DNA of 64,000 bases, taken from Myxococcus dinghuensis (GTDB taxonomy: Bacteria > Myxococcota > Myxococcia > Myxococcales > Myxococcaceae). The stretch is from the NCBI RefSeq assembly GCF_024198235.1, contig NZ_JAKCFB010000005.1, positions 1 through 64,000 on the forward strand, written 5' to 3'. Positions within the stretch are counted from its first letter, which is position 1; the number at the start of each line of letters is the position of its first letter. The notes under the pieces were generated by a model. It searched no databases, was not told the DNA's origin, and saw only the letters and a program-made list of their open reading frames with translations. The translations under genes and the position numbers were made by a program. Shown here one piece after another: positions 717 through 40,756 of the stretch.

Positions 717-2129
717 TCAGACGGCGAAGAACTGTTCGGAGAACACGAGGTCGTGGACGCCCCAGCAGAAGGCGTCAGCCCTGTCATCTCGACGGCCCGC
801 GATGCCCGCGAACTTGCTGAGCTGAGCCTCCAGCTTGGGGAACGTGCCCACGAACTCGACGCGACCCGCTTCGGCCAGCGCGGACACGGGCTCAGCGCGC
901 TTGCTCTTCGCGCTCGTCGCCCGGACGGGCTTCACGTTGACGCTCACGCCCATCTCGCCCGCCACCGTGGAGATCAGCGTCTCCACCATCTCCCCACCCG
1001 TGTTCACCTCCACCACGAGCGCATCGCATCCCCACTCCAGATAGGCGCGGATGGCCTTCGTCGCCCACTCACGGGGACTCGCCCGGCACGACAGGTCGGC
1101 GAGCACGGACACCCGCTTCAACGGCACGTTGTCGGGGCCAAAGAGCGCGCTCGACTTGCACCCTTCGACGATGATTCCCGTTTCGTCCGAGCCCGTTTCG
1201 CTGGTGGGGCTCGGGTCCACGCTGACGATTCTGCGGTCGAGCTGCTGGGCGTACTCGTGCGGGTCCGTGTCGACGCGCCGCCACTTCGCAGAACCGAAGA
1301 TGGCGCCGGGCACGTCGAAGAGCAGGCGTCCGAGCACCTCTTGCTGACCCCATCGGGTGTTCGCCAGCGCCCGCATGTTGGCAATCGCCGTGGGCGCCAG
1401 GTTCGCGACGTTGCTGAGCGACGAGCCCGAGCGCAGCACCACTCCCGGCTTGAGAATCTGCTTCTCCGAGTCGGCGAAGAGCAGCTCTTCAATCTTCTTC
1501 AGCGGGCGCGGCGTCCCCGTCAGGAGGAGCTGCGGCGGGTCCTCGCGCGAGCCGATGCGAAGCACGAGGGGAAGCTGGTCGACCGCGGCCATGTCGTGTT
1601 TCCACGAAGCCGGCTCGTCGCCCCAGCCCCATCCGGCATTCGGGCCGCGCAGTCGGTCGGGCTTATCCGCCGAGTAGCAGATGGCATAGACGCCGTTCGG
1701 CCACGTCACGCGCCGCTTGCTGGGCTCGTACTTCGGCGTGAACCACGGGGGCGACAGGGCGAGGATGCCGGACGCGCCGCGAATCATCGTGTCGCGCACG
1801 TCCGCCGCCGTCGGTCCAACCAGGGCCCCGACGCTCTTCGCCTGCCACGCTTTCTTGATGACCCACCGCGCGCCGCACCACGTCTTGCCGAAGCCCCGCC
1901 CGGCCATGACGAAGCACGTTGAGAACTTGTCCGGCGGCACCTGCTCACGCCGCGCCCAGAAGTCGAGGTCGTAGACGAGCAGCTCGATTTCCTTGTCGTC
2001 GAGGCCGCCGAAGAGCTTCGCGAGCTGCGCGCGGGAGCCCGCCGTCTGGACCATGCGCGACGCGGGCGACTCGTGGGGCCCGAGGTTCTCTGCGAACTTC
2101 CCCCAGGCCCCCGTCAGAAGGCTACGCAT
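717..2129 (-). CDS. phage terminase large subunit (packaging ATPase/nuclease)
   Basis: ATP-driven motor that cuts and packages phage DNA, docking on the portal. The 470 residues carry a Walker A motif AGRGFGKT (residues 76-83), a Walker B-type GWGWGDEPA, a coupling motif TGTPRP, and a C-terminal RNase H-like nuclease domain with acidic residues in VSVDPSPT, VVEVNTGGEM and DDRADAF. Length and motif order fit the Terminase_6 group. It overlaps the small subunit by 8 bp and is followed after 4 bp by the portal gene, the standard TerS-TerL-portal order. No truncation or missing motif is seen. Confidence 0.95.
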   Translation of the reverse strand: MRSLLTGAWGKFAENLGPHESPASRMVQTAGSRAQLAKLFGGLDDKEIELLVYDLDFWARREQVPPDKFSTCFVMAGRGFGKTWCGARWVIKKAWQAKSVGALVGPTAADVRDTMIRGASGILALSPPWFTPKYEPSKRRVTWPNGVYAICYSADKPDRLRGPNAGWGWGDEPASWKHDMAAVDQLPLVLRIGSREDPPQLLLTGTPRPLKKIEELLFADSEKQILKPGVVLRSGSSLSNVANLAPTAIANMRALANTRWGQQEVLGRLLFDVPGAIFGSAKWRRVDTDPHEYAQQLDRRIVSVDPSPTSETGSDETGIIVEGCKSSALFGPDNVPLKRVSVLADLSCRASPREWATKAIRAYLEWGCDALVVEVNTGGEMVETLISTVAGEMGVSVNVKPVRATSAKSKRAEPVSALAEAGRVEFVGTFPKLEAQLSKFAGIAGRRDDRADAFCWGVHDLVFSEQFFAV

Positions 2130-2592
2130 CGGTGGCCCCCTTGTCGTCGAGCTGCTCGGGCGTGGCGGCTTCGGCAGGTGCCGGCAGTTCGTCGGGCAGG
2201 AACTTCCCGAGGCGGTCGATCAGCAGCTCGCGCAGGGCGGCAGTGTCGGCGGCTTGGTCCTCGGGGCTCTTCGCCTCGACGTTGTCGCGCCGGCCGTACA
2301 GCTCCGGGAAGCGGCGGGACAGCAGCCATTGGACGTGCTTGGGGTTCGTCGTGGACGCGGCCTGGAGCGTCTCTGTCGCGCCCTGCATGAACTCGGCTTC
2401 CGCCTTGTTCACCGCGACGAAGAACTCGCGGTAGAGCCCGCGCGTCTCGCTCGCGCCACGGTGATACCACCTGGAAACGGAGTGCTCTTCGACGCCGCAG
2501 AGTCCCGCCGCAGCTCGACGAAAGAGCCCATTTCTCAGGTGCTCGCAGAATGTCTTAATCAGCTCGTGCGTGAGCTTTGTATGGGCAGGCAC
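2122..2592 (-). CDS. phage terminase small subunit
   Basis: DNA-recognition partner of the large terminase subunit. The 156-residue product begins with a helix-turn-helix-like segment (KLTHELIKTFCEHLRNG, then AAAGLCGVEEHSVSRWYHRG, about residues 6-47), typical of phage TerS proteins, followed by a helical oligomerisation region and an acidic Pro/Ala-rich tail. It overlaps the large subunit by 8 bp. The start is GTG at 2592, only 6 nt downstream of the CATTTA end of the repeated phage element (2599-2628). The purine run GAGGGA abuts the start codon with no spacer, so either the mRNA is leaderless or initiation is unusual. Confidence 0.85.
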   Translation of the reverse strand: MPAHTKLTHELIKTFCEHLRNGLFRRAAAGLCGVEEHSVSRWYHRGASETRGLYREFFVAVNKAEAEFMQGATETLQAASTTNPKHVQWLLSRRFPELYGRRDNVEAKSPEDQAADTAALRELLIDRLGKFLPDELPAPAEAATPEQLDDKGATDA

Positions 2593-2598
2593 TCCCTC

Positions 2599-2628
2599 TA
2601 AATGGGTGTGACTTCCGCGAGCGGTTCA
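2599..2628 (-). promoter_or_regulatory. repeated phage promoter-like element, copy A (packaging operon)
   Basis: On the minus strand it reads TGAACC, 18 bp, CATTTA, with GAA at spacer positions 8-10 and CACC at the spacer end. Six copies with identical spacing occur in the prophage, each directly before a transcription unit in the same orientation. This copy precedes the small terminase, whose GTG begins 6 nt after CATTTA. By position TGARCC behaves like a -35 and CATTTA like a -10. A binding site for a phage repressor or activator is the alternative. Confidence 0.7.
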
Positions 2629-2884
2629 CGAACCCTTCAGATTTATCGGGGCCCCACTGAACACATCAGCGAGTTTGGCCGGAATTTCTCAAAAGTGGTG
2701 CGCGCCGAGCAAGCCAGAATTCGGCCCACAGAAAGGAATTCCTTCCCGGGGGCCTCGCAGGAGCCCCCACACCTGAACACACCTACACACCTCAACAAGA
2801 TCACGATTCAGCGGCTTGCAACTCTCGGACTACAAAATGGATCAAGGTCATGCCCAGGCATATTAGGCTCTCGAACGAACTTCG

Positions 2885-2896
2885 GTGTCCTGACAC
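2885..2896. promoter_or_regulatory. short inverted repeat before the TIR gene
   Basis: GTGTC-CT-GACAC, a perfect 5-bp dyad ending 11 bp before the TIR start codon. It could be a repressor operator or part of a small 5' hairpin that hides the poorly matched ribosome binding site. Short palindromes occur by chance, so this is only a candidate. Confidence 0.25.
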
Positions 2897-2907
2897 GACA
2901 TTAGGCG

Positions 2908-3921
2908 ATGCCCAAAAATCCAATCACACGCCCCAGCACTCGGCCCCTCTTCATTAGCCACGCCGCCGCAGACAAAGACCTCGTAAACTTCTTCATTGAC
3001 ACGATACTAATCAGAGGGATTGGGGTTTCCCAAGAAGCCATCTTCAACACATCCGCAACATCAGGCCCGATTGCCCCGGGCTCGAACTTCACCGAAGACA
3101 TCAGGCACGCGCTACGCGAAGCCGAATTCATAATCGCGGTCATTACGCCACTGTATTTCCAGCGCGCATTTACAATGGCCGAACTGGGCGCGGCATGGGC
3201 ATTCGAACGACTCATTCCAATCCTCGTGCCTCCTCTTGATTTTGCTGATGCAGAAGGCATCCTCAAGGGAACCCAATGCCTAAAAATCGACAACAAGTCG
3301 AACCTATCATCAATATACGATCAACTCGCAAAGGCAGCACATCGGAGGAAAAGCTGGATATCACCATCAGGCCACGGAACCTTCGAAGAACAACGTGACA
3401 CATTTTTGAATGGCCTCCAGGCGCGAATCAATACCACGACAAATCCACCTCCCCCTACCTCCACACCTCAGATCGCCACAAAGACAGCATCAAAACCTCA
3501 AACACCGGAAGAAGCCAGACAGGAATTCAAAGCTCGAATACTAGATCTCAAAGCAGCCCTAGCACTACTGCCACCGATTGTTCGTCAGGCATTCTTCTGC
3601 AAAACCACTGCGACAGGCGGACTCAAGCTCCCGTCAGGCGACGTCGAATTGGCGGACGCATTGCATCGCGGGCTCGTGACCACAAGTCAATACAGCAACG
3701 GATTCATCATCACCAAGGAGGTCTTGGTCTATCCTTCCGAGAACAGTCAGCTCAACAAAGATGTCGACGACCTCCTCATTAAGCTCACCGTCTTCATTGG
3801 ACGCGCCCCACCCGCATTTCGCCGTGACTACGAAAACAGCCACGGCCACCCGGCGGACCTTCGGGTTGCTCGGTTCTGGAATACACACAATCTTCGCGGC
3901 CTTGCGCCCCAAACCCCTTAG
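2908..3921 (+). CDS. TIR-domain protein, prophage passenger (putative anti-phage effector)
   Basis: The 337-residue protein has an N-terminal TIR-like domain (about residues 11-130): a first strand RPLFISHAAADKDLV, later REAEFIIAVITPLYF, and MAELGAAWAFE, where Glu92 sits at the position of the catalytic glutamate of NAD-consuming TIR domains. A Pro/Thr linker (about 165-200) leads to a C-terminal domain of about 135 residues that I do not recognise. Many bacterial TIR proteins are abortive-infection effectors that deplete NAD+, so this may protect the lysogen against other phages; that role is inferred. The gene is markedly more A/T-rich than its neighbours and stands alone between two minus-strand phage genes, as morons do. 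The start is fixed by an in-frame TAG two codons upstream; no Shine-Dalgarno is evident. Confidence 0.75.
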   Translation: MPKNPITRPSTRPLFISHAAADKDLVNFFIDTILIRGIGVSQEAIFNTSATSGPIAPGSNFTEDIRHALREAEFIIAVITPLYFQRAFTMAELGAAWAFERLIPILVPPLDFADAEGILKGTQCLKIDNKSNLSSIYDQLAKAAHRRKSWISPSGHGTFEEQRDTFLNGLQARINTTTNPPPPTSTPQIATKTASKPQTPEEARQEFKARILDLKAALALLPPIVRQAFFCKTTATGGLKLPSGDVELADALHRGLVTTSQYSNGFIITKEVLVYPSENSQLNKDVDDLLIKLTVFIGRAPPAFRRDYENSHGHPADLRVARFWNTHNLRGLAPQTP

Positions 3922-3957
3922 GCTTCAAGTCGAGACCACCCCTCCCAAAGAGCAGCC

Positions 3958-4827
3958 CTATGTCTGCTCTCTCTCCAGAAGCAAGAGACGCAACTCATCC
4001 AATACACGCACAAGCATCCTATCGACGCGGCTCTTCGGCGCGCCCCATGCTTCTGCGACGGAGCGCACCGACTGCGCGGGGCAGCCGAGCCCGAACACGC
4101 GGGAGACGAGGTCGAGCTGCTCGGGGGACAGTCGTCGCACGGCATCGAGCACGAGGGCTCGACGCTCAGCCGCCAGCAGCATCGCCTCGGGCGTCTCGTC
4201 GTCGACCTCGCGCCCCGAACGCTCCCGCAGTGAGGTTTCCAGGGCCTCGATGAAAGGCTCATTGCCCAGGACACCGTCCGAAAAATGAGACGGTATGTCT
4301 ATGCATTGGACGCGTGTGGCGTCGCTGCCGGTGTCCTGAGCTGAACGCAGAGTCCGGCCCTTGTGAGCCCCATCGCTCAGGTGAACGTCGCTGGCGTGCA
4401 TGCGCGCGTACTGTTCGCAGGCCGTGCGCGCGCGGAAGTAGGCCACGTCGGCGAACGACTGGCGGCCCCTCGTGGGGTCGAACTTGTCGACGGTGCGAAG
4501 CACGGCCATCGAGGCGACCTGCGCGAGGTCTTCAGGGGACACCGTGCCCGCGAAGGACAGGCAGCACCCGACGGCGCGGCGGATGACGGGGCTCACGGAC
4601 ACGAGCAGCTCGGCGGACAGCACGCGCTCAAGCTCGGCGTCCCTGTCCTCTCGGGCCTGAACGATTCGCGCCACGAGGACAGTCTGCTGCGCTGCCTCGG
4701 TGGCGTACCTGTAGCGTGCAATGGCCCTCCCTGCGGCGGCCCTGAAACATTTGGGCTCGTGATACATCGCCCCGCGCGAAGCACGCCGCGTGCCGACCCC
4801 ATCCCATTCACACACAGTCTCAGCCAC
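3958..4827 (-). CDS. phage-encoded sigma-70 family RNA polymerase sigma factor
   Basis: The 289 residues carry a region 2 (about residues 85-150: SPEDLAQVASMAVLRTVDKF, then FADVAYFRARTACEQYARMH) and a region 4 with helix-turn-helix (about 205-285: RRALVLDAVRRLSPEQLDLV, then SVRSVAEAWGAPKSRVDRML). It probably redirects host RNA polymerase to phage promoters. GTG at 4827 follows an in-frame TGA six codons upstream, so a longer product is impossible. A copy of the repeated 30-bp element lies about 72 bp upstream in the same orientation, suggesting autoregulation. It is convergent with the TIR gene. The family is clear; its promoter specificity is inferred from co-occurrence with the repeated element. 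Confidence 0.8.
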   Translation of the reverse strand: MAETVCEWDGVGTRRASRGAMYHEPKCFRAAAGRAIARYRYATEAAQQTVLVARIVQAREDRDAELERVLSAELLVSVSPVIRRAVGCCLSFAGTVSPEDLAQVASMAVLRTVDKFDPTRGRQSFADVAYFRARTACEQYARMHASDVHLSDGAHKGRTLRSAQDTGSDATRVQCIDIPSHFSDGVLGNEPFIEALETSLRERSGREVDDETPEAMLLAAERRALVLDAVRRLSPEQLDLVSRVFGLGCPAQSVRSVAEAWGAPKSRVDRMLVRVLDELRLLLLEREQT

Positions 4828-4899
4828 GGTGTATCGCCACCCTCACCCGGACTCGGCCGCATGAAGCCGGCCCAGCGGCAGGAGTGCCGCTTCACCGTG

Positions 4900-4929
4900 T
4901 AAATGGGTGTGACTTCCGCGAGTGGCTCA
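4900..4929 (-). promoter_or_regulatory. repeated phage promoter-like element, copy B (sigma factor gene)
   Basis: On the minus strand: TGAGCC, 18 bp, CATTTA. Its spacer matches copy A at 17 of 18 positions. It lies about 72 bp upstream of the sigma-factor start, so unlike copies A, C and D it would give a conventional 5' leader. Confidence 0.7.
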
Positions 4930-5122
4930 GCGCGAGAGTCCCCGGCAGTGCGTCAGCCTCAACAAGGGTCCAAAGGGGTACGCGTAATATCCATAGAGCA
5001 CGCTCACCTCATCTATGTACGTATCCCCCTTGTTCTTACTCCTACATCTTCTTTGGCTTAGGGAGTTATACAGAGTGGTTCTGCCAGCTTGATGATTGCC
5101 ACCGCGAAGAAAAATCGCCGTG

Positions 5123-5152
5123 TGAGCCACCGCCAGAATCCACACCCATTTA
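5123..5152 (+). promoter_or_regulatory. repeated phage promoter-like element, copy C (replication arm)
   Basis: TGAGCC, 18 bp, CATTTA, with the shared GAA and CACC inside the spacer. The GTG start of the primase-helicase lies exactly 6 nt after CATTTA, as for copies A and D. If CATTTA is a -10 element, transcription would begin at or next to the start codon, giving a leaderless message. Confidence 0.7.
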
Positions 5153-5158
5153 CGCAGG

Positions 5159-7504
5159 GTGACCACACCATCTTCAGTTGCCCCTGCCGCCCCTCCTGTC
5201 CACCCCGGCGCCCCTGTGCGAGTCGCGCTCTACGCGTCCGCTCAGGACAACGTGCCGCAAGTCGTCGACCTGTCATGGCCCGAGCTGTCAGCAAAGCTCG
5301 TCGCCCACCGTCGCAGTCAGTGCCCTACGTTGCCGTGTCCGCGCGGGTGCCCTGCGAAGAACGGCCCCGCTTGGAGCCCCGTCGACATCGTCGAGCGACG
5401 ACGCACCGAGAACGTGCGCGCCGTCACCGTGGCCGTCTTCGACCTGGACCACCTCAACGCGCCGCAGCTCTCGTTCCTCGATGCCGTCGAGCGCCACGGA
5501 CTGGCCTACGCCCTCCACTCGACGCACAGCAACCGCCCGCCCGACGACTACTGCCTGCGGCTCGCCATGCCGTTGTCTCGGCCCGTCCTGCCCCGGGAGT
5601 GGCCCGCCGTGCGTGAGGCCGCAATTCGGATGCTCGGGCTTCCCGCCGACCCCGCCACGAAGGACTTGGCGCGCATCTACTACCTGCCCGACGTGGCCAC
5701 AGGTGCCGAACCCTTCGCGGCGAGTGGCGAGGGGGCGCCCCTGGACGTCGACGCGCTGCTCGCCATGGCACCTTCGGGCCTCCCCACGGCGGCCCCGGTG
5801 CCTACGGCTACCCCCGAGGCGCCCGCCGACCTGTACGAGCTGCGGGCCCTCTTGCGCCGTATCCGCAAGCCCGAGCACGTCGTCATCGTGCGACGGGTCC
5901 TCGCGGGCGAGCCCCTGGCCCCCATTGGCGGGCAAGACACGGCCCTGAACGCCCTCATGTCGTGCGCGGCCTTCGTCCTGCCGCTCAGCACGCCCGAATC
6001 GGCCATCGTCGAGCTGTTCCGCGCGTCGTTCGCGGCAACGGACTGGCGGGAGGGCACCGAGCACCTGTGCGAGCAGGCCCTCTTGAAGCTGCGACGCCAC
6101 CGGGAGAGGCGCCGGGCTAGGGATGCCGGGCGGCTCGCGGAGAACGACGCCATTTGGAAGGCACTGGGCGGCTCGGCCCCGGAGGCCCCCTCACAGGACG
6201 CGTCAGGCGGAGAGGAAGACACCCCATCCCCCGACAACTGGATGAGCAAGCTCACGCTCGACCCGGGCAAGGACGGCACGAACAAGATTCGCAACAGTGA
6301 GGCGAACGTCTTCGCGGTGCTGCTCAACTCCCCCGAGTGGCGCGGCGTGCTCCGCTTCAACGAGAGCACCAAGCAGCTTGAGGTTGATGGCGGGCCGCTC
6401 GGGATGAATCCGGACCTGGAGACGCTGGACGTCCTCGTGGCCAACTGGATTCAGCAAAGCACCTATGGCCAGCTCGGCCTGCGCCCCAAGGCGCTGACCG
6501 TCTCGCAGCAGATTCTCGGAGTCGCGAAGCGGAACAGCTACGACCCCGTCGCCGAGTACCTGGGGGGACTGGTCTGGGACGGCACGCCGCGGCTCGACGA
6601 GCTGCTCGTGACGTACTTCGGCGCCCGAGGGGATGCCCGATACCTGCGGGCCGTCGGCGCGAAGTTCGCCATCTCCGCTGTCGCGCGCGCCCTGCGCCCC
6701 GGGTGCAAGGTCGACACGGTCATGATTCTGGAGGGGCCCCAGGGCCTCCGGAAGTCGACCGCGTTCCGCATCCTCGGCGGGCGCTACTTCACCGACGCGT
6801 ACATCGACGTGACGAACAAGGACAGTGCGATGCTGGCCTCTCAGTATTGGCTCATCGAACTGGCCGAGCTGACCACGTTCCGGAAGTCAGAAGACCAGGC
6901 CCTCAAGGCGTTCCTCACCAGGACGGAAGACACCTACCGGCCGCCCTACGGACGCACCAACGTGAAGTCCCCGCGCCGTTGCGTGTTCGTCGGAACCACC
7001 AACGAGGACGACTACCTGCGGGACCCCACGGGCCATCGGCGCTTCTGGCCGGTGAAGTGCAGCCACATCGACACCGACGCCCTCGCGCGCGACCGTGACC
7101 AAATCTGGGCCGAAGCCGTCGCGCGCTTCAACCAGGGGGAGTCGTGGTGGCTCACGTCCGAGGAAGCGGCGGGCGCCGAGCAGCAAGCCGCCCTGCGCGC
7201 CGAGAACTACGGGGACAGCCGCAAGGAAGTCATCCTGAAGTGGCTGCTGGAGATGCCGGCCGACAAGCGCCCCAACGACGTGACGATTCTCCACGTCGGC
7301 GTCGAAGCCTTCTCACTCCACCCTGCCCAGGTCGACCCGCGCATCTCCCGCGAAATCGGCGCGGCCCTGAAGGCGCTGAACTTCACCCGTGGCCAGCGTC
7401 GAATGGGCGATGGGACACGGCCGCTCGTCTACTACATCCCGGACGAACTCCGGAACGCGCCCATGGAGAAGCGTGACCATGCTGGGGCGAATATGCGGGG
7501 TTGA
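5159..7504 (+). CDS. phage primase-helicase (VapE/VirE-type superfamily 3 helicase with N-terminal primase-like domain)
   Basis: The 781-residue N-terminal part (about 1-200) resembles archaeo-eukaryotic primase-type domains: FDLDHL acidic pair, HSTHS, and ARIYYLP. After an acidic linker, the C-terminal part (about 460-720) is a VirE/VapE-like helicase: GLVWDGTPRLDELL, Walker A GPQGLRKST (about 524-532), WLIELAEL as Walker B, GTTNEDDYLRDPTGHRRFWP as sensor region. It probably primes and unwinds phage DNA at initiation. It is the first gene of the rightward replication arm and starts with GTG 6 nt after the repeated element. Family assignment of the helicase is firm; the primase activity is an inference from short motifs. 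Confidence 0.85.
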   Translation: MTTPSSVAPAAPPVHPGAPVRVALYASAQDNVPQVVDLSWPELSAKLVAHRRSQCPTLPCPRGCPAKNGPAWSPVDIVERRRTENVRAVTVAVFDLDHLNAPQLSFLDAVERHGLAYALHSTHSNRPPDDYCLRLAMPLSRPVLPREWPAVREAAIRMLGLPADPATKDLARIYYLPDVATGAEPFAASGEGAPLDVDALLAMAPSGLPTAAPVPTATPEAPADLYELRALLRRIRKPEHVVIVRRVLAGEPLAPIGGQDTALNALMSCAAFVLPLSTPESAIVELFRASFAATDWREGTEHLCEQALLKLRRHRERRRARDAGRLAENDAIWKALGGSAPEAPSQDASGGEEDTPSPDNWMSKLTLDPGKDGTNKIRNSEANVFAVLLNSPEWRGVLRFNESTKQLEVDGGPLGMNPDLETLDVLVANWIQQSTYGQLGLRPKALTVSQQILGVAKRNSYDPVAEYLGGLVWDGTPRLDELLVTYFGARGDARYLRAVGAKFAISAVARALRPGCKVDTVMILEGPQGLRKSTAFRILGGRYFTDAYIDVTNKDSAMLASQYWLIELAELTTFRKSEDQALKAFLTRTEDTYRPPYGRTNVKSPRRCVFVGTTNEDDYLRDPTGHRRFWPVKCSHIDTDALARDRDQIWAEAVARFNQGESWWLTSEEAAGAEQQAALRAENYGDSRKEVILKWLLEMPADKRPNDVTILHVGVEAFSLHPAQVDPRISREIGAALKALNFTRGQRRMGDGTRPLVYYIPDELRNAPMEKRDHAGANMRG

Positions 7505-8571: not shown

Positions 8572-8601
8572 TGAGCCACTCTTAGAAACCGCACCCATTT
8601 A
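8572..8601 (+). promoter_or_regulatory. repeated phage promoter-like element, copy D (nuclease gene)
   Basis: TGAGCC, 18 bp, CATTTA; spacer keeps GAA at positions 8-10 and ends GCACC. GTG of the nuclease follows 6 nt later. It re-starts transcription of the replication arm after the DUF11 passenger gene. Confidence 0.7.
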
Positions 8602-8607
8602 GGAAGG

Positions 8608-9915
8608 GTGACGCCCTCCTGCAAAGCTCCCACGAACAGCCCCTCCGTCGTTGCAGGGGTCATCCAGCGGTTGAGCGTCTCGCAGCTCAAGCGCCACAAG
8701 CAGTGCCCCCGCGCGTGGTACTTCGCCAAGGTGCTACGCGTCCCCGAGCCCACCACGGGGGCGCAGCAGGTCGGCACCGAAGGCCACGCGCAGCTTGAGC
8801 ACTTCCTGTCGACGGGCGAGGACGTGCTGGGCGCGTTCGCGAAGTCGGGCGCCCACCTCCTGCCGACGCCCGGCGCGGACCTGCTCGTCGAACAACCCCT
8901 CGACGGTGAACCGCCACTGACGGCGGGCGGCATCCCCTTCACCGGGTTCATCGACCTTGTCGACGCGCGACAGCTCGCCTCCGACGGCGTGCTGCGCATC
9001 ACCGACCACAAGTTCACCAGCAACATCGCAAGGAACGCCGCGACGCGCGAGCAGCTCGCCGACGCTGACACCGAGCCGGGCTTGCAGATGCTCGGCTATG
9101 CCGCGTGGGCGCTCCGCCAGGTCGAGCGCTTCCCGGGCCTGCGCGAACTGGAACTCGAACACCTCTACTACCAGACCCGAGGCCAGCGCCTTGCCGCGTC
9201 CGTCCTCGCCTCCGTGCCCGTTGAGCACGTCGAGCGCGAGTGGAGGACGAGGGTCGAGCCCCAGGTCGAACAGATGAAGGCGCACGCGCAAGCCGCCCGA
9301 GCTTCCGACGTGCCCGCGAACTACGGCCCCGCCTGCACCAAGTACGGCGGGTGTCCGTTCATGGCGAAGTGCCTCACAGGAGGAAGCAAGACGATGTCTC
9401 TACGCGACAAGCTGCTCAACAAGTCCGACCTGCCCGCCGTCCTGCCGCCCGATGCGCCCCAGCCCACGCCCGTCCAGGTGGCGCCCGAAGTCACCGAGCA
9501 GCCCGCCCCCGAGGCCGAGCAGCCCGCGCCGAAGCGTCGTGGACGGCCGAAGACCACGAAGCCCGAGCAGCCCAAGAGCGACCTCCGCGTCCTGTTCATC
9601 GACTGCATCCCGACGAAGCACGACGGGCCGCGCGCCGAGTCCCTCGGGCCGCGCGCCGAGTCCCTCACGGCGTACGTGGACGAGCTGCATCGCAAGGTCG
9701 CCGAAGCGGGCGGTGTCGACGACGTGCGCTTCGCGGGCCCGGACTCGCCGCTGGGCTTCGGGAAGTGGCGCGGGGCGCTGGCCATGGCGGCGCGTGCCGA
9801 GCTGCCCCCTCCCGGGAACTACGTCGCGCTGGGGGCCGCCCAGTCCGAGCTGATGCAGGTCATCGTCGAAGCGCTGGAGCCTTCCTTCGACGTGGTCGTT
9901 CGCGGGGTCCGCTAG
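8608..9915 (+). CDS. PD-(D/E)XK nuclease (RecB/Cas4-like) with C-terminal extension
   Basis: The 435-residue protein opens with LSVSQLKRHKQCPRAWYFAK, then GTEGHAQLE, a GFIDLVD acidic motif and ITDHKF, the order of RecB/Cas4-like PD-(D/E)XK nucleases. One Cys near residue 29 and three in the CTKYGGCPFMAKC segment (about 249-261) are arranged like the iron-sulfur cluster ligands of that family. A Pro/Glu linker with an AT-hook-like KRRGRPK (about 310) leads to a C-terminal domain of about 120 residues that I do not recognise. It contains a 7-residue tandem duplication GPRAESL. Such nucleases usually resect DNA ends during phage recombination-dependent replication. The GTG start is 6 nt after copy D of the repeated element. 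Confidence 0.8.
   Translation: MTPSCKAPTNSPSVVAGVIQRLSVSQLKRHKQCPRAWYFAKVLRVPEPTTGAQQVGTEGHAQLEHFLSTGEDVLGAFAKSGAHLLPTPGADLLVEQPLDGEPPLTAGGIPFTGFIDLVDARQLASDGVLRITDHKFTSNIARNAATREQLADADTEPGLQMLGYAAWALRQVERFPGLRELELEHLYYQTRGQRLAASVLASVPVEHVEREWRTRVEPQVEQMKAHAQAARASDVPANYGPACTKYGGCPFMAKCLTGGSKTMSLRDKLLNKSDLPAVLPPDAPQPTPVQVAPEVTEQPAPEAEQPAPKRRGRPKTTKPEQPKSDLRVLFIDCIPTKHDGPRAESLGPRAESLTAYVDELHRKVAEAGGVDDVRFAGPDSPLGFGKWRGALAMAARAELPPPGNYVALGAAQSELMQVIVEALEPSFDVVVRGVR
9625..9666 (+). repeat. perfect 21-bp tandem duplication inside the nuclease gene
   Basis: Two head-to-tail perfect copies of a 21-bp unit encode GPRAESL twice. The perfect identity suggests a recent slippage event that keeps the frame, at the start of the C-terminal domain. 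Confidence 0.9.
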
Positions 9916-13375: not shown

Positions 13376-13405
13376 TGAACCATTCCCAGAATCCGCACCC
13401 ATTTA
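13376..13405 (+). promoter_or_regulatory. repeated phage promoter-like element, copy E (ssDNA-binding-type gene and polymerase)
   Basis: TGAACC, 18 bp, CATTTA. The sequence 6 nt after CATTTA is GTC rather than GTG, and the first plausible start is ATG at 13457, so this unit would have a leader of about 45 nt. It stands before the 176-codon gene and the DNA polymerase. Confidence 0.7.
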
Positions 13406-13456: not shown

Positions 13457-13987
13457 ATGAACAACGCACTGACGAAGATTGCCACCGCCCAGGCCGCCAC
13501 CGGAGGCCGCTACCCCCGCTTCGGGGACTACCTGTTCGAAGTCGCGGTCATCCGCATGAAGGAGGGGTTCAAGGGCGACTCGGCCATTGCTGAGCTGAAG
13601 GTCCGCGAGTCCTCCCCCTTGCCGGGTGGCGAGTCCCCCAACCGCGTGGGCGAGACGGTCGACTACGTCGAGAACCTGTCCGACCAGAAGAAGGGCGGCG
13701 GCGGACGTTTCAAGTCCTTCCTGATGACGCTGGTGGGCGCCGAAGAGCACGAGTTCGCCAACCCGGCCGTCCTGAAGAAGTTCTTCGACGAGCGGCAAGC
13801 CGGCACGCACCTCCTGATTCGGTGCGAGGTCTTCCCCAAGCAGCTCCCCGTGAAGGACGGCCACGCCGGCAAGGTCATCACCGGCTTCCGCTGGTCCCAC
13901 GTCGAGCTGAACGACGAGCAGCTCGCCCAGGCCGAGCAGTCGCGCAAGGCGAGCAAGCTGCCCGCGCTCTCCGACGCCCTCGCCTGA
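13457..13987 (+). CDS. phage replication protein, probable ssDNA-binding-type
   Basis: A 176-residue protein directly upstream of the phage DNA polymerase. It contains alternating beta-type segments (YLFEVAVIRMKEGFKGD, AELKVRES, FKSFLMTLVG, THLLIRCEVFPK) compatible with an OB-like fold, a Lys/Gly-rich loop and an acidic C-terminal end. Phage replication modules often place an ssDNA-binding protein here, and I infer that role from context and strand pattern only. A copy of the repeated promoter-like element lies 51 bp upstream. Confidence 0.55.
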   Translation: MNNALTKIATAQAATGGRYPRFGDYLFEVAVIRMKEGFKGDSAIAELKVRESSPLPGGESPNRVGETVDYVENLSDQKKGGGGRFKSFLMTLVGAEEHEFANPAVLKKFFDERQAGTHLLIRCEVFPKQLPVKDGHAGKVITGFRWSHVELNDEQLAQAEQSRKASKLPALSDALA

Positions 13988-14071: not shown

Positions 14072-16081
14072 ATGAACCTCTGGTCCTTCGACACGGAGAC
14101 GTGGCTGATTCAGCCCGGATTGCTTGCGCCCCCTCTTGTCTGCGGGAGCATCGCGACTCGGGCCCCAGGCAGCGAACGGCTGCTCGACAAGGCCCAGGCT
14201 CGGGAGTTCTTCCGCGAGGCCATCGCCGCGCCGGACACGCACCTTGTCGGGGCCAATCTCGTCTACGACCTGGGCGTCATGGCGGCGGATGACCCGCGAC
14301 TCGTGGCGCCCATCTTCGCGGCGCTCCAAGCGGGCCGCCTGCATTGCGTCCAGGTCCGCGAGGCGCTCATCGACATCGCGCGGGGCGTCTACGGCGTTCA
14401 TCCGTTGACGGGTCGAAGGCTCGACGACGACGAAGGCGCCCGCTACCCGCTCGCGCTCCTCGTTCAGCGTCACCTGGGGCTCGACATCAGCGCGGACAAG
14501 CATGCCCCGGACGCGTGGCGCCTTCGCTACGCGGAACTCGACGGCGTCCCTGTCGAGCGCTGGCCCGCCGCGGCTGTCGAGTACCCGAAGCGCGATGCTC
14601 GCTACACGCTCGACGTCTACTTCTGCCAGGAGACCCTCGCCCGCGAGGTGTCCAACGGCGGCAACCTGCATTCCGAAGCCGACCAGATGCGCGCCGCCTT
14701 CGCGCTCCACCTCGCATCCATCTGGGGATTGCGCACGAATGGTGTTGCCGTGGCGCAGCTCCGGGAGCGCGTCGAGCGGGAGTGGAACGAGAACCGCGCG
14801 AAGTTCCAGGCGGCGGGCATCTTCCGGGCGGACGGCACGAAGGACTCGAAGCGCCTCGCCGCGCTCGTGACTGCCGCGTATGACAGTCAGCCGCCCATCA
14901 CTTCCCCCAGCGACCGATTCCCCGACGGTCAGGTCGCGACCGACCGTGACACGTTGCTGGGCTCAGGCGACCCCATTCTGGAGGAATTGGGGCGAAGTGG
15001 ACGCGTCGACAAGTACAAGTCCACCTACCTGGATGTCGTCGAGGCCGGCACCACGCACCCCATCAACCCGCGCTTCAACGTGCTGGTGTCCACGACGCGC
15101 GTCAGCTCCGACTACCAGCAGCTCCCTCAGAAGGGCGGCATTCGCGAGGTCCACGAAGCGCGGCCTGGGTTCGTCTTCTGCTCGGTCGATTATGGCGGCC
15201 TGGAGCTGCGCACCATGGCTCAGCGGGCCATCTGGGAACTGGGCTACTCGAAGATGGCCGACGCCCTCAACAGCGGGCTCGACGTCCACACCCTTGCCGC
15301 GGCCGAGTTCCTCGGGACGAGCTACGCCGAGCTGCTGCCGTTGGTGAAGGCGAAGGACCCCGTTGCCGTCTCCTACCGGCAGCTCGCGAAGATTCTCAAC
15401 TTCGGCAAGGGCGGCGGGATGCGAGCGGGAACCCTCGTCTACAACGCGCGCGCCAAGGACCGCGTCTCGTTCTGCCTTCTCGCCAAGCGAGCCGAAGAGT
15501 GCGGTGTCACGCGCGAGGAAGTCACCGTCCAACGCAAGCCGAAGCGAGTTTGCCGGGGCTGCCTCCTGGTCGCGAAGGAACTGGACGAGCTGTGGATGCG
15601 GGCATGGCCCGAGCAGCGCGAGCTACAGGAGAAGGCACAGGCACTCTCCTACGGCGGTGGCTTCGCGGACGTCATGATTCCGGGCGTCAACATCCTGCGC
15701 GGCATGTGCGGCTACACCCAGATTCTGAACACGCCGTTTCAGGGCTTGGGCGCCGTCGGGTGCAAGCTGGCCATGTGGCGCGTCAGTCGCGAGATGTACG
15801 TCGACCGCCGCTCACCCCTCTACGGCTCGCGAATCGTCCTCAACATGCACGACGAGCTGCTGAGCGAACTACTCGCCGACGACGCGCAGCGGTTGCACGA
15901 CGCGGCCGAGCGCAAGGCGTACCTCATGCGTGAAGCGATGAAGGAGACGACTCCCGACCTGGCGCCGGCAATCGAAGCCGAGCCCGCGCTGTCTCGGATT
16001 CTCTCGAAGGATGCCGCCACCGTGCGCGACAGCTCGGGGCGTCTGCTGGTCTGGGAGCCCTCCGCGAAGCGCGCGGCCTGA
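14072..16081 (+). CDS. phage DNA polymerase, family A
   Basis: The 669-residue replicative polymerase has an N-terminal 3'-5' exonuclease domain (FDTET with Asp7 and Glu9; NLVYDLGV; YPKRDARYTLDVY) and a C-terminal polymerase domain: motif A SVDYGGLELRTMAQ, motif B QLAKILNFGKGGGMRAG, motif C LNMHDELLSE. Length matches phage family A enzymes, which lack the 5' nuclease of bacterial Pol I. Three CXXC-like cysteines in the region around KRVCRGCLL may bind metal. Its stop codon TGA is the first three bases of copy F of the repeated element. Confidence 0.92.
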   Translation: MNLWSFDTETWLIQPGLLAPPLVCGSIATRAPGSERLLDKAQAREFFREAIAAPDTHLVGANLVYDLGVMAADDPRLVAPIFAALQAGRLHCVQVREALIDIARGVYGVHPLTGRRLDDDEGARYPLALLVQRHLGLDISADKHAPDAWRLRYAELDGVPVERWPAAAVEYPKRDARYTLDVYFCQETLAREVSNGGNLHSEADQMRAAFALHLASIWGLRTNGVAVAQLRERVEREWNENRAKFQAAGIFRADGTKDSKRLAALVTAAYDSQPPITSPSDRFPDGQVATDRDTLLGSGDPILEELGRSGRVDKYKSTYLDVVEAGTTHPINPRFNVLVSTTRVSSDYQQLPQKGGIREVHEARPGFVFCSVDYGGLELRTMAQRAIWELGYSKMADALNSGLDVHTLAAAEFLGTSYAELLPLVKAKDPVAVSYRQLAKILNFGKGGGMRAGTLVYNARAKDRVSFCLLAKRAEECGVTREEVTVQRKPKRVCRGCLLVAKELDELWMRAWPEQRELQEKAQALSYGGGFADVMIPGVNILRGMCGYTQILNTPFQGLGAVGCKLAMWRVSREMYVDRRSPLYGSRIVLNMHDELLSELLADDAQRLHDAAERKAYLMREAMKETTPDLAPAIEAEPALSRILSKDAATVRDSSGRLLVWEPSAKRAA

Positions 16082-16108
16082 ACCACTCGCGGAATCCGCA
16101 CCCATTTA
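16079..16108 (+). promoter_or_regulatory. repeated phage promoter-like element, copy F (resolvase-integrase unit)
   Basis: TGAACC, 18 bp, CATTTA, identical to copy B over the ACTCGCGGAA half of the spacer and to copy E over the ATCCGCACC half. Its first three bases are the polymerase stop codon. It precedes the 56-codon gene, resolvase, excisionase and integrase, with 29 nt between CATTTA and the first ATG. Confidence 0.7.
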
Positions 16109-16137: not shown

Positions 16138-16308
16138 ATGGCCACGCGAACCAACGCGTCCGAGCTGCTTCCGCTCCCGTCCCCCTACCTCGAAGACGAC
16201 ATCGACGACGCGGTCGCCTTCGATGTCGCCGACTTCGATGAACTGCGGCTGCTGTCCGCGCTCGACGGCGAGCCTGTCGCGCTCCACTTCCAGGTGGCCG
16301 AGCTGTGA
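16138..16308 (+). CDS. small acidic phage protein
   Basis: A 56-residue ORF (MATRTNASELLPLPSPYLED... ending HFQVAEL), strongly acidic in the middle (EDDIDDAVAFDVADFDE). GAGAGG lies 8 nt before the ATG, and its TGA overlaps the GTG start of the resolvase (GTGA), so the two are translationally coupled. Function not recognised; small acidic phage proteins sometimes act as DNA mimics or regulators, but nothing here proves that. Confidence 0.65.
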   Translation: MATRTNASELLPLPSPYLEDDIDDAVAFDVADFDELRLLSALDGEPVALHFQVAEL

Positions 16309-16858: not shown

Positions 16859-17059
16859 ATGCATCCTCCTGAGTTCCTCACCGTCGACGAAGCCGCGGCG
16901 ATCCTCCGGGTGAACCGAAAGACGCTCTACGAGTCGATTCGCCTGGGGCAGATGCCGGGGGTTGTTCGCATCGGGAAAGCACTGCGCATCCGTCGCGCGG
17001 CACTGGTAGAGTCCACCCCCGGGAAGGGCCGCGATTCTGCGCTTAGAGGTCGAGAATGA
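16859..17059 (+). CDS. xis: excisionase / MerR-like helix-turn-helix DNA-binding protein
   Basis: A 66-residue protein with the HTH_17 excisionase pattern FLTVDEAAAILRVNRKTLYE, IRLGQMPGVVRIGKALRIRR. Such proteins bend attachment-site DNA and steer the integrase towards excision. Its TGA overlaps the integrase ATG (ATGA), which couples their translation. Gene size and partner make the excisionase role likely; a purely regulatory role is the alternative. Confidence 0.8.
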   Translation: MHPPEFLTVDEAAAILRVNRKTLYESIRLGQMPGVVRIGKALRIRRAALVESTPGKGRDSALRGRE

Positions 17060-18276
17060 GCGTCAGATTGCGGACGTGGACAACGAAGAGCGGGAAGTCA
17101 GAGGAGACGTGGCAAGTGGACTTCGTGTTCCAGCATGCGGACGGACGGAAACAGCGAGTCGTGAAGTTCTCGCCTGTTCAGACCCGTCGGGGTGCTGAGC
17201 AATACGAACGCGAACTGCGCAACGCCCTTCTCAACGGGACTTTCGGAAAGGAGAAGTGCGGCGAGGAGAGCGCCATCACGCTCGCGGAGTTCACCCCGCG
17301 TTTCCTCGTCTACAGCGAGAACAACAACAAACACTCAAGCGTCGACAGTAAGAAGATGATTCTTGCGCTTCACATCCTTCCCTTCTTTGGGAAGTCGCCA
17401 CTCGCGAGCATCGGCCCTGCCGAGGTCGAGGACTTCAAGGCGCACATGCGCAAGAAGAAGTCGGCAGCGCGCGCCCACAAACAAGCTTCTCTAAAAGCCA
17501 GCACGAGGGAGCGGCAGAACGTCGAGCCCAAGAACCTGAGCTTGAAGACCATCAACAACGTCCTGACGGTGCTTCACAAGCTGCTGGCCATCGCGGAGGA
17601 GCAGCGAGTCATCCAGCAGGCTCCGCGTGTGAAGCTCTTCGGGAAGCTGCCGAAGCCGCCCTACGACTTCCTGACCTTCGAGGAAGCCGAGAGGCTTGTC
17701 GCCGTCGCTGAGCCCGAGTGGCGTCCTATTTTGCTCGTCGCCCTCAAGACTGGGCTACGGCAGGGGGAGCTAATCGGTCTCCAGTGGAGTGACCTGGACT
17801 TGCCGCGCCGCACGCTGCACGTCCGCCGGTCTATCTGGCGTGGTCTAGAGGGCTTGCCGAAGGGCGGGCGTGAACGGGCTGTCGAACTGCCCGCATCGGT
17901 GGTTGATGCCCTCAAGGCCCATCGGCACCTTCGGGGCCGGTTCGTCTTCTGCCAAGAGGACGGGCAGCTCCTTACGAGAGGAAAGATGGAATCTCCTCTT
18001 CGTCGCGTCCTCCACGCGGCAGGCATCACCCGTGAGCAGGGGAAGATTGGCTGGCACGACCTGCGGCACACCTACGGCAGCCACCTCGCCATGAGGGGTG
18101 TTCCGCTGAAGGTGATTCAGGAGCTGATGGGGCACGCCACCATCGAGATGACGATGCGCTACGCCCACCTGAGCCCCGACACTCGAAGAGATGCGGTCAG
18201 CGTCTTGGACCGCGCTGTTGCTCCGGCATGCGACATACGTGCAACACGAGAGGAGGAGGCCGCTAACCACCCGTAA
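17056..18276 (+). CDS. int: phage tyrosine recombinase (integrase)
   Basis: The 406-residue site-specific recombinase has an N-terminal arm-binding-type domain (about 1-70), a SAM-like core-binding domain (about 75-190) and a catalytic domain with Arg235 (TGLRQGEL), His334 and Arg337 (HDLRHTYGSHLA), His360 (LMGHATIEMTMRYAHL) and the nucleophile Tyr369. All catalytic residues are present, so it should be active. It is the last gene of the phage and ends 16 bp from the 3' end of a tRNA gene, the usual position for a tRNA-targeting integrase. It overlaps the excisionase by 4 bp. Confidence 0.93.
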   Translation: MSVRLRTWTTKSGKSEETWQVDFVFQHADGRKQRVVKFSPVQTRRGAEQYERELRNALLNGTFGKEKCGEESAITLAEFTPRFLVYSENNNKHSSVDSKKMILALHILPFFGKSPLASIGPAEVEDFKAHMRKKKSAARAHKQASLKASTRERQNVEPKNLSLKTINNVLTVLHKLLAIAEEQRVIQQAPRVKLFGKLPKPPYDFLTFEEAERLVAVAEPEWRPILLVALKTGLRQGELIGLQWSDLDLPRRTLHVRRSIWRGLEGLPKGGRERAVELPASVVDALKAHRHLRGRFVFCQEDGQLLTRGKMESPLRRVLHAAGITREQGKIGWHDLRHTYGSHLAMRGVPLKVIQELMGHATIEMTMRYAHLSPDTRRDAVSVLDRAVAPACDIRATREEEAANHP

Positions 18277-18292
18277 CTACTGCACCCTAAAG

Positions 18293-18330
18293 CGCTCCGA
18301 CAGGGAATCGAACCCTGTTCACACGGTAGA
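18293..18330. other. probable phage attachment site (tRNA 3' half)
   Basis: The integrase stop is at 18276 and the 3' end of the adjacent tRNA at 18293. Tyrosine integrases of this layout recombine in the T-arm/acceptor end of a tRNA, and the phage copy restores the tRNA. The core is therefore expected within the 3' half of this tRNA. The other att copy would lie beyond the left edge, so the exact core cannot be defined here. Confidence 0.6.
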
Positions 18331-18363
18331 CGGCCGTGCTGCGATCCAATCGCATCCCGGAGC
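18293..18363 (-). tRNA. tRNA-like gene, anticodon GTC (Asp?), non-canonical
   Basis: A cloverleaf can be folded: acceptor GCTCCGG/TCGGAGC, D stem GCGA/TCGC with only a 5-nt loop TTGGA, anticodon stem CACGG/CCGTG, T arm CAGGG-TTCGATT-CCCTG, discriminator G. The 7-nt anticodon loop CCGTCTA gives GTC (Asp) and the discriminator G fits Asp, but position 33 is C instead of the near-universal T, and the D loop is unusually short. CCA is not encoded. It is the last gene of the cluster and the apparent phage target; part of its 3' half may be phage-derived. Confidence 0.6.
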
Positions 18364-38935: not shown

Positions 38936-40756
38936 TCAGAAGGCCGGGACGCGGAAGTCCTTCACGATGCCCATGTGCTGCATCTGGGAGGCGCCGCTGT
39001 CGTTCGTCTGGGCCGGGGAGATCTCCGAGATGGGCGTGTACACGCGGCTGTCGAGCACCAGGCCGCCCGGGAACGTGCTGTTCCCGATGACGGTGGACTG
39101 CCGGTACTGGTTCAGGTCCTCGTCCACCAGCACATGGTCGTAGGGCTTGTTGCGGCCGGCGTTGGTGTTGACGTTGCCGTTCTTGTCCGCCGGGTACGGC
39201 GCGGTGGTGACGACCACGTTCTTGAAGGTGTTGAAGCAGCTCTCCGTGCGGCTGTCCGTGTTGAAGTCGCCGCCGATGACCAGGTAGTCGCCCTCGGGGA
39301 CCTGCGCGCGGATGTAGTTGAGGATGGCGTTCGCCTCGGTGTTGCGCGTGGACGCGTTGCGGGTGAGCAGGTGCACGCTCACGGCCCAGAGGTCACGCGG
39401 CCCGGGGATGTCGATGCGCGCCCAGGCGAAGTCGCGGTTGTCGACCTCCGGGTCCTTCCACTCACCGGACTGGATGATGGGCCAGCGGCTGATGATGCCG
39501 TTGGGGATCTGCGCGCCCGACTCGCGGTAGTACGAGAAGCCCTGGCCAACCTGGTTGACCATCGAGCCGATGTCCGACGCGGAGTTGTTCAGGTAGTTGA
39601 ACTCCTGGACGAGCACCACGTCGGGCTTCACGCCCTGCATCAGGCGGATGCCGTGGCCCAGGTCGTAGTCCTGGCCATTCCCGCTGGAGAGGTTGGCCGC
39701 CATGATGCGGATGTTCGTGTAGCTGCCCGTGCCGGTGCCACCGTCCGTGCCGGCATCCGTGCCCGCGTCGGTCCCGGCGTCGGTCTGCGAGCCACCGTCC
39801 GTCGTGCCGCCGTCCGTCGTGCCACCGTCCGTCGTGCTCCCACCATCGGTCGTCGTGCCACCGTCGGTCGTCGTGCCACCATCGGTCGTCGTGCCACCAT
39901 CGGTCGTCGAACCACCGTCCGTGACGACGCCACCATCCGTCGTCGTGCCGCCGTCCGTCGTCGTGCCACCGTCCGTGACGACGCCACCGTCTGTCGTCGT
40001 GCCACCGTCCGTCGTCGTGCCGCCGTCCGTCGTCGTGCCACCGTCCGTGACGACGCCACCGTCCGTCGTCGTGCCGCCGTCCGTCGTCGTGCCGCCGTCC
40101 GTCGTGCTCCCACCATCGGTCGTCGAACCACCGTCCGTCGTGGAGCCGCCGTCCGTCGTGGAGCCGCCGTCCGTCGTGGAGCCGCCGTCCGTCGTGCTCC
40201 CACCATCGGTCGTCGAACCGCCGTCGGTCGTCGTGCCACCGTCCGTGACGACGCCACCATCCGTCGTCGAACCGCCGTCCGTGACGACACCACCGTCGTC
40301 GGTCGTCGAGCCACCGTCATCCGTCGTCGAGCCACCGTCGTCGGTCGTCGAGCCACCGTCAGTCGTGGAGCCACCGTCGGTGACCTCGCCGCCGTCGGAC
40401 TCGCCGCCATCCGCGCCGCCGTCCGCGCGGGCGCAGGTGCCCACCGGGATGCAGTAGTTGGCCACCCCGCCGTCCGAGTCACCGAACGGGCAGCACTCCG
40501 CCTCGGGGTGCCCGCACTCGCCCTTCGCGTCGCACGCCCACACGCAGACGGAGTGCTCGTAGGCCTCGATGTGGACGCACGTCTCCGCGGCCCCGCACCC
40601 ACCCGCGTCGCTCGCCGGATCACACTCCGCCCAGAGGACACCACCGTCATCCTGCGGTGACGGAATGGGCGGCGGCGAGTCCGAGTCGCCACACGCGAGG
40701 ACGAGGATCATGAGAGCCGACAACGCCCCCACGAGGTAGGAAAGGGTCTTCTTCAT
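38936..40756 (-). CDS. lipoprotein with TDGG-repeat linker and endonuclease/exonuclease/phosphatase domain
   Basis: The 606-residue protein begins with a lipoprotein signal (LVGALSALMILVLAC), then a Cys-rich module (about 40-110) of the kind seen in myxobacterial surface proteins, a low-complexity linker of about 200 residues made of TTDGGS/VTDGG units, and a C-terminal endonuclease/exonuclease/phosphatase fold (about 355-606: IRIMAANLSSGNGQDYD, VVLVQEFNYL, WAVSVHLLTRN, YLVIGGDFNTDS, KPYDHVLVDED). The catalytic Glu, Asp-Asn and late His are present, so it may be a surface nuclease or phosphodiesterase. The linker is Asp-rich and may bind calcium or span the outer surface. Confidence 0.85.
   Translation of the reverse strand: MKKTLSYLVGALSALMILVLACGDSDSPPPIPSPQDDGGVLWAECDPASDAGGCGAAETCVHIEAYEHSVCVWACDAKGECGHPEAECCPFGDSDGGVANYCIPVGTCARADGGADGGESDGGEVTDGGSTTDGGSTTDDGGSTTDDGGSTTDDGGVVTDGGSTTDGGVVTDGGTTTDGGSTTDGGSTTDGGSTTDGGSTTDGGSTTDGGSTTDGGSTTDGGTTTDGGTTTDGGVVTDGGTTTDGGTTTDGGTTTDGGVVTDGGTTTDGGTTTDGGVVTDGGSTTDGGTTTDGGTTTDGGTTTDGGSTTDGGTTDGGTTDGGSQTDAGTDAGTDAGTDGGTGTGSYTNIRIMAANLSSGNGQDYDLGHGIRLMQGVKPDVVLVQEFNYLNNSASDIGSMVNQVGQGFSYYRESGAQIPNGIISRWPIIQSGEWKDPEVDNRDFAWARIDIPGPRDLWAVSVHLLTRNASTRNTEANAILNYIRAQVPEGDYLVIGGDFNTDSRTESCFNTFKNVVVTTAPYPADKNGNVNTNAGRNKPYDHVLVDEDLNQYRQSTVIGNSTFPGGLVLDSRVYTPISEISPAQTNDSGASQMQHMGIVKDFRVPAF
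39778..40392 (-). repeat. in-frame minisatellite encoding TDGG-type repeats
   Basis: About 600 bp of degenerate 15- to 18-bp units (minus strand, encoding GGSTTD, GGTTTD, GGVVTD and DDGGSTTD) form the linker of the nuclease-family lipoprotein. Long internal stretches are identical, so copy number is prone to change and assembly may be inexact here. Confidence 0.9.

Follow-up and report, generated by a model that had tools for sequence, protein, structure and literature searches.

A prophage sigma factor of Myxococcaceae and the 30-bp element that it probably reads as a promoter

What reads a 30-bp sequence that recurs six times in a prophage of Myxococcus dinghuensis, and is it the sigma-family protein whose gene lies among the copies? 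A first-pass annotation of this DNA had proposed that it is, one of the copies being the promoter of the sigma gene itself. The window analyzed here, the whole stretch of 64,000 nucleotides, is part of contig 70 in a genome of 124 contigs and 10.4 Mb. Its first 18.3 kb are prophage, which extends past the contig start and contains terminase, helicase-primase, exonuclease, helicase, polymerase, and integrase genes. The sigma factor is encoded inside this phage genome, its gene being surrounded by those for terminase, helicase-primase, exonuclease, polymerase, and integrase. The features that matter here are the following, with element classes as defined below.

717..2129, minus strand: terminase large subunit (Terminase_6N, 6C; Pfam, PHROG)
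2122..2592, minus strand: terminase small subunit (phrog_4102, E 2.4e-18), first gene behind element A
2599..2628, minus strand: element A, class G1, followed after 6 nt by the GTG of the terminase small subunit
3958..4827, minus strand: phage sigma-70 family factor, 289 aa, GTG start (domain profiles, structure model)
4900..4929, minus strand: element B, class G1 (TGAGCCACTCGCGGAAGTCACACCCATTTA), its end 72 nt before the sigma start
4973..5031, no strand: imperfect inverted repeat of 59 bp in the gap between B and C, with 14-nt arms, 79% complementary, 31 nt apart
5123..5152, plus strand: element C, class G1, 6 nt before GTG 5159
5159..7504, plus strand: helicase-primase (VapE-like; Pfam, PHROG), first gene behind element C
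8572..8601, plus strand: element D, class G1, 6 nt before GTG 8608
8608..9915, plus strand: PD-(D/E)XK exonuclease (Pfam, PHROG), first gene behind element D
13376..13405, plus strand: element E, class G1 (1 mismatch), followed after 51 nt by the 176-aa ORF
13457..13987, plus strand: 176-aa conserved phage protein (without a PHROG match at E 0.1; other phages have homologues behind this element)
16079..16108, plus strand: element F, class G1, upstream of a 182-aa ORF at 16305 and the integrase (next gene assigned by position only)
17056..18276, plus strand: tyrosine integrase, 15 bp from tRNA-Asp 18292-18363

The sigma-family protein and the repeated element

The first-pass annotation described a 289-residue sigma-family protein with recognizable regions 2 and 4. 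The protein itself is borne out: its gene occupies 3958-4827 of the minus strand, the plus-strand reading of 3958-4929 is interrupted by stops, and NCBIfam TIGR02937 matches residues 96-281 with 46.4 bits, above the cut-off of 42.9. So are both regions. TIGR02937 extends to residue 281, but Pfam Sigma70_r2 falls slightly below its cut-off of 24 in the window protein (23.5 bits, E 4.8e-5) and Sigma70_r4 finds no match in it. Across the 31 family members, Sigma70_r2 is found in 28 at E 0.01 and Sigma70_r4 in 12. Two PHROG sigma families match the window sigma (E 1.8e-11 and 2.2e-6), and a profile built from the 31 relatives finds its best PDB sequence matches in RpoS, SigA, and FliA chains (E 3e-9 to 1e-7, spanning residues 58-282 or so).

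An AlphaFold model of the protein (mean pLDDT 73.7, pTM 0.42) contains two well-predicted helical domains, at about 41-145 (sigma2, high pLDDT) and 213-288 (sigma4), joined by a disordered linker at 147-191. All 50 Foldseek matches listed bear sigma or RNA polymerase holoenzyme titles, and from titles and chain letters we read the matched chains as sigma subunits. TM-scores by query are low (0.20-0.30), which we attribute to the free arrangement of the domains. Typical ECF (group 4) sigma factors consist of sigma2 and sigma4, lack sigma3, and are shorter than 289 aa; the window protein has this length, two ordered domains with a disordered linker, and RpoS, SigA, and FliA as its nearest PDB sequences. 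On profiles and model together, the protein is a member of the sigma-70 family with regions 2 and 4, and binding of core RNA polymerase followed by initiation is its predicted function.

The six element copies named at first pass are all present at the positions listed above, and copy B, which the annotated span of 3958-4929 includes, does lie 72 nt from the GTG of the sigma gene. Their 30-bp consensus is TGARCCRCNNNNNGRANNCNCACCCATTTA, an asymmetric, bipartite sequence with halves about 17-18 bp apart that points towards a gene. At up to 5 mismatches to the consensus the window holds no seventh element, and positions 20001-64000 yield none at a score of 0.80. A 23-base piece of copy B has three matches at up to 3 mismatches, against 0.00 in 100 shuffles. 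A degenerate 30-base pattern matches the 10.4 Mb genome exactly at 11 places, and its reversal at none; the idea that the element is chance sequence was rejected on the zero counts of both reversed-pattern and reversed-sequence controls.

Further single elements occur elsewhere in the same genome (C3:2574, C57:1968, C61:64748, C111:8378, C118:3094, C120:1643, C123:2297). The C61 element adjoins a satellite-like HTH gene, and a 42-aa fragment of phage polymerase on C111 shows 100% identity to the window polymerase. The variable base N of CACNCATTTA, the -10-like end of the element, is C in all 15 elements of the window and of L069 (the own-genome loci); in 17 other G1 loci it is G in 75, C in 34, and T in 20.

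Sigma class and element class in related phages

Relatives of the sigma were found at 15 viral loci on 14 contigs and on four further viral contigs (18 contigs, by hand count). Of 195 genomes of the phylum, 23 have members of the sigma family (E 1.5e-8 or better), some as fragments, and all 23 belong to the family of the window. This search scored the first 12 candidates per genome, and 28 of the 51 genomes with any sigma match were excluded, their matches (E 2e-7 to 9e-4, 22-40% identity) being taken as other sigmas. A viral-contig scan using a G2 sigma confirmed no relative, and the sole relative among phage records is a weak match in Synechococcus phage S-LBS1 (32% over 36% of the query). 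One 77-kb viral contig (IMGVR_UViG_2844571421_000002) holds two copies of the sigma locus (L017, L024), apparently two prophages in tandem.

A tree of 31 aligned sigmas has two deep branches, G1 and G2, with a G3 subgroup nested in G1 (support 100/100). G1 sigmas are 52-79% identical to the window sigma, and G2 sigmas 30-33%. The elements also form three classes, in which the -35-like half is common and the -10-like half different: the G1 element, the class of the window, ends CACNCATTTA; the G2 element ends GTCCCCAT plus three bases; and the G3 element ends CANCATCTA, with its halves one base closer. A variant of G2, GCCCCCAT, occurs in two phages of the sister genus g6 and in some elements of two g1 phages (L061, L065).

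When elements are scored with fixed weights at a threshold of 0.80, 210 of the 211 found at 32 sigma loci match the class of the resident sigma and reversed sequence gives none, with the qualification that the counts come from related, thus non-independent, loci and that the class consensuses were partly built from loci later scored. The 19 G1-sigma loci hold 154 G1, one G2, and no G3 elements; all 50 elements of the 11 G2-sigma loci are G2, and all six of the two G3-sigma loci, on which class G3 is based, are G3. The lone off-class element is G2-like and lies in a G1-sigma locus (L018). On the sigma tree, element class changes twice, the minimum. Left out of the class table are L028 (a short contig), L074 and L152-L162 (mostly duplicates of loci already included, with L156 a contig-end fragment), and L076 and L077, whose sigma genes are broken; L062, a near-copy of L063, is kept in the table and dropped from alignment A2. 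L077 has no element at 0.80, and L076 has kept three. The weighted score was adopted because an early G2 control by plain count (threshold 20 of 30) was unclean, giving 0-4 chance matches per locus in reversed sequence.

The promoter set switches everywhere together with the sigma, and a sigma-promoter pair predicts that. Between L015 (G1) and L073 (G3), the 176-aa, protease-like, and MPLK-type proteins are 81-88% identical, and the promoters found in L073 are G3. Between L015 and L060 (G2), the same three operon products are 47-59% identical and the promoters are of the resident class. The sigmas of L015 and L073 are 55% identical, and those of L020 and L073 63%. Start codons in this comparison follow a codon-bias rule, and the terminase match in L073 covers just 34 aa.

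The element is also recovered by a dyad search that counts spaced tetramer pairs, the motif not being supplied. Its TGAG...TTTA dyads are in the top list in all 14 G1 viral loci used (L014-L027, the short contig L028 being left out), and in the 11 G2 loci the element core GAAA-N6-CCAT ranks second, in seven of them. The first rank in the G2 loci (L058-L068) goes to a palindromic pair, GTTC-N17-GAAC, over-represented in 8 of 11.

The pattern occurs in 33 of the 195 genomes as G1, in 11 as G2, and in five as G3, and reversed patterns occur in none. All 23 sigma-positive genomes carry the element, against 17 of the other 172 (Fisher 1.9e-19); the co-occurrence of gene and motif is thus complete in one direction, and elements also occur where the sigma family does not. 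Within the 96 genomes of the family the association persists (Fisher 1.0e-11), and for G2 alone it is 10 of 10 sigma-positive genomes against one of 86. A profile search of the 17 genomes, scoring 111-143 candidates in each, yields weak matches of 23-29 bits (E 4e-6 to 1.3e-4), most in frames of 311-382 or 715-739 aa, whereas true family members reach 340-454 bits with the same profile. From these scores we take the weak matches to be host sigmas. Fetched loci cover nine of the 17; G066, G074, and G101 are left out.

The first-pass annotation had named the motif in phages lacking the gene as evidence against its proposal, and here the outcome is divided. By hand count, 23 viral contigs carry the exact motif; 17 of these, comprising all that are at least 24 kb long, carry the sigma gene, but six of 6.4-20.4 kb, which may be fragments, do not. 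In the stretches fetched from them, four of the six have a capsid gene of the window phage group, one of them also its terminase, and the other two match none of 14 probe proteins.

The position of the element before the sigma gene is conserved. In 17 of 19 G1 loci the sigma start is preceded, at 65-86 nt, by a same-strand element (L026 and L070 have none within 420 nt upstream), and in both G3 loci the distance is 72 nt. In the G2 loci it lies 263-288 nt upstream, with a high score in 8 of 11 and a weak one in L066. L060 has its element 410 nt upstream, and L067 has no sigma-strand element upstream and a single G2 element in the whole locus at 0.85. At that threshold, an ATG or GTG opening at least 60 codons follows 121 of 181 elements at 5-9 nt, against 6.2% of 3200 random positions. 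Bacterial transcription starts about 7 nt after the -10 box, so many transcripts would begin at the start codon, which suggests that the mRNAs from two thirds of the elements are leaderless. This is a tendency, because the elements before the sigma and 176-aa genes are exceptions; elements homologous to E lie about 55-57 nt before the homologues of the 176-aa protein. Leaderless phage transcripts are described as common in an earlier report (PMC5312081).

Because element class varies with sigma class, gene and element co-occur, and the element keeps its place before the sigma gene, we consider it very probable that a dedicated phage sigma captures the host core polymerase and uses the 30-bp element as its promoter, the one before its own gene included. 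The first-pass proposal is in this respect well supported, as far as comparison of sequences can carry it. In the mechanism that we propose, the phage sigma would redirect host core RNA polymerase to the element, the TGARCC half serving as the -35 contact for sigma4 and the CACNCATTTA half as the -10 contact for sigma2, and transcription would begin about 6-9 nt past the element, often on the start codon, producing a leaderless mRNA. Besides the operons for terminase, helicase-primase, exonuclease, and the integrase end, the sigma would activate itself in a positive feedback, since an element precedes its own gene. We infer binding, transcription, leaderless start, and feedback alike from sequence comparison. 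The predicted role of the sigma is wider than the first-pass annotation held, reaching the terminase, helicase-primase, exonuclease, 176-aa gene, and integrase end. The autoactivation proposed there fits the anatomy, with an element ahead of the sigma gene; the switch between silent and lytic states proposed with it is hypothetical.

Islands that carry the element away from a sigma gene

We chose 20 sigma-distant loci, 13 from genomes without the family and seven from genomes with a sigma elsewhere. Thirteen are satellite-like islands, five are prophage remnants or pieces, and two are unassigned; because these loci are mostly satellite-like islands or remnants, we do not count the motif without the gene as a refutation.

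Nine of the 20 are small islands headed by a 78-aa HTH protein (L132-L137, L142, L145, L148). Six of these are complete (L132-L134, L142, L145, L148) and encode, in constant order, the HTH protein, a primase, a D5-like helicase, an Xis-like protein, and a tyrosine integrase. L135 and L136, both short contigs, end before reaching the integrase; in L137 the primase-helicase is a different one. Four virion probes (two terminase subunits, capsid, protease) find no match in any of the nine, so that a PICI-like content of integrase, excisionase-like, and replication genes with no virion-probe match is complete in six of nine. A tRNA or tmRNA gene lies within about 70 bp of the integrase in six of the seven HTH islands scanned; L134 has none. 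General Pfam and PHROG scans of four L134 proteins returned no psu, sid, or delta. Beside the L134 array lie two ORFs that, by their letters alone, look kinase-like and lipoprotein-like.

A second kind of island (L138, L139, L140, L150) contains integrase, Xis, and protease genes, with G1 elements 6 and 9 nt before the xis and protease starts. An HK97-type capsid gene accompanies them in three of the four; the exception is L140, which has a partial protease and in which a capsid was not found. The viral contig of L097 is of the same recurring type, with an HK97-type capsid match. These five are candidate capsid-bearing satellites or reduced prophages. Among the remaining loci, L141, L143, L144, L146, and L147 are set among homologues of window phage genes (remnants or partial prophages), and L149 and L151 match integrase or integrase-Xis alone.

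In the HTH islands the elements are stacked ahead of the HTH gene. Three copies in genome G131 (L133 is the third) and one in G130 have the tandem order G3, G3, G1, G2; the arrays of G120 read G3, G1, G2 in one copy and G1, G1, G2 in the other; and other islands have G1 with a G2, G1 alone, or one degenerate G2 (L165). Three islands in the sister genus g6 have the GCCCCCATTGA variant, as do g6 phages. We examined 30 HTH loci among 35 places listed. At least one element is present in 27 of the 30, all three classes in four, and two classes in five, with 50 matches in total against none in the reversed control. Weak HTH homologues at L186-L189 lie within about 1.1 kb of a sigma-family match and are therefore phage-borne; excluding these four, 23 of 26 loci have an element. 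The genome of the window has one HTH locus (C61), with two G1 elements.

Could the elements outside sigma-bearing phages be no more than the residue of decayed prophages, with no satellite biology behind them? Five of the 20 loci do lie among window-phage homologues, the primase of L137 is different, and the capsid-bearing islands share 84-95% capsid identity with four viral contigs, among them one whose terminase is 94% identical to that of the window. Against decay stand a gene order that is fixed in six of nine HTH islands with no virion-probe match in any of the nine, a tRNA or tmRNA beside the integrase in six of seven, recognizable elements kept in 27 of 30 HTH loci, and the three islands of G131, each with four tandem promoters in a genome that has no member of the sigma family. 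We regard decay as the unlikely explanation, while giving it real weight.

The reading that we prefer is that the HTH islands are satellites transcribed once a helper brings its sigma, and that their arrays would cover more than one helper. The integrase-primase and capsid-bearing islands have no sigma, and therefore we propose that they are transcribed only when a phage supplies one. It is further possible, with a probability somewhat below even, that phage sigma-promoter pairs diverge faster than the remaining phage and that satellites stack one promoter per class for several helpers. The basis for faster divergence is the L015-L073 pair, with sigmas at 55% and three operon products at 81-88%. 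Such sigma changes would be driven by conflict between prophages and satellites, or by avoidance of cross-talk among prophages that share a cell.

Rival readings of the element and known systems

The main rival to the promoter reading is a second regulator linked to the sigma, since it predicts the same co-variation. The element would then be the operator of that regulator, a host sigma would transcribe the genes, and the phage sigma would read something else. Linkage alone would indeed give the observed co-variation, and further DNA-binding proteins are likely in any prophage; yet the element is asymmetric, bipartite, and gene-oriented with a promoter-like geometry, two thirds of its copies standing 5-9 nt from a start codon. 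The operator-like sequence of this region is the inverted repeat at 4973-5031, a candidate operator for a repressor judging from its symmetry, which lends the rival some substance. The single TTGACA/TATAAT-type match in 2400-5400 (shuffles give 0.8) falls at 2890-2919, away from the elements, and no such promoter lies near the sigma gene, with the host promoter class represented by that consensus alone, which Myxococcus promoters may not fit. The element differs from the same consensus, in agreement with the first-pass statement that it is unlike the host -35 and -10 boxes. Satellite-like islands, moreover, set several classes in tandem. We consider an operator improbable.

That the element is an RNA signal, a translation enhancer or processing site before start codons, is highly improbable: the near-constant spacing of 121 of the 181 elements, 5-9 nt from a start codon, would suit it, but the full sequence is kept 65-86 nt upstream of the sigma in 17 of 19 G1 loci and 51-57 nt upstream at element E, the conserved -35-like half would be left without a role, and element class is predicted by sigma class.

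Read as a promoter, the element joins a known theme. SPO1 gp28 and gp33/34 and T4 gp55 are phage-encoded sigma factors. As with these, a virus-supplied sigma would redirect host RNA polymerase to phage promoters. Unlike them, the present system belongs to Myxococcaceae prophages, a single sigma seems to drive the majority of operons, its own among them, three promoter classes are separable, and most promoters look leaderless. Phage sigmas have long been known, as one account notes for SPO1, SP10, and the sporulation-like sigmas of Bacillus phages (PMC9429907). In a review of myxophages the words sigma, promoter, and transcription are absent from the main text by word search (PMC6070905), and a word search of a review of mobilizable elements finds no mention of sigma or promoter (PMC11389934). 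Searches of the open-licence literature, by title and abstract start, found no report of this element, this sigma family, its promoters, or sigma-borrowing satellites.

Gene expression of satellite P4 depends on the activator ogr of its helper P2 (PMC8628076). P4 resembles the islands in having an integrase, a small DNA-binding regulator, and a primase-helicase, and differs in carrying delta, its own homologue of the helper's activator. No sigma was found in the islands, which would borrow that of the helper, and several carry promoters for different helpers. Like PICIs and their capsid-forming relatives, they are small integrated islands with integrase, excisionase-like, regulator, and primase genes near a tRNA or tmRNA; like the capsid-forming relatives, some have capsid and protease genes and no terminase match. 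Known PICIs are induced by derepression or by their own activators. The islands described here, known from sequence, differ in that their first operon carries promoters of the phage-sigma classes.

The phages offer a natural series of sigma-promoter pairs for the evolution of sigma2 specificity, in which the -35-like half is constant while the -10-like half and spacing switch with the protein. If the islands are satellites, copying the sigma-specific promoter of each helper would be a simple means of sensing several helpers. The 30-bp element is also a readable tag for phages, remnants, and hangers-on in Myxococcaceae genomes.

Two observations concern the remainder of the window. A TIR-domain protein (PF13676, E 2.5e-11) is encoded at 2908-3921 on the plus strand, between the late operon and the sigma gene, and is possibly defence cargo. 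Long arrays of 18-nt and 15-nt repeat units, at 39734-40381 and 62700-63400, probably fall within host genes.
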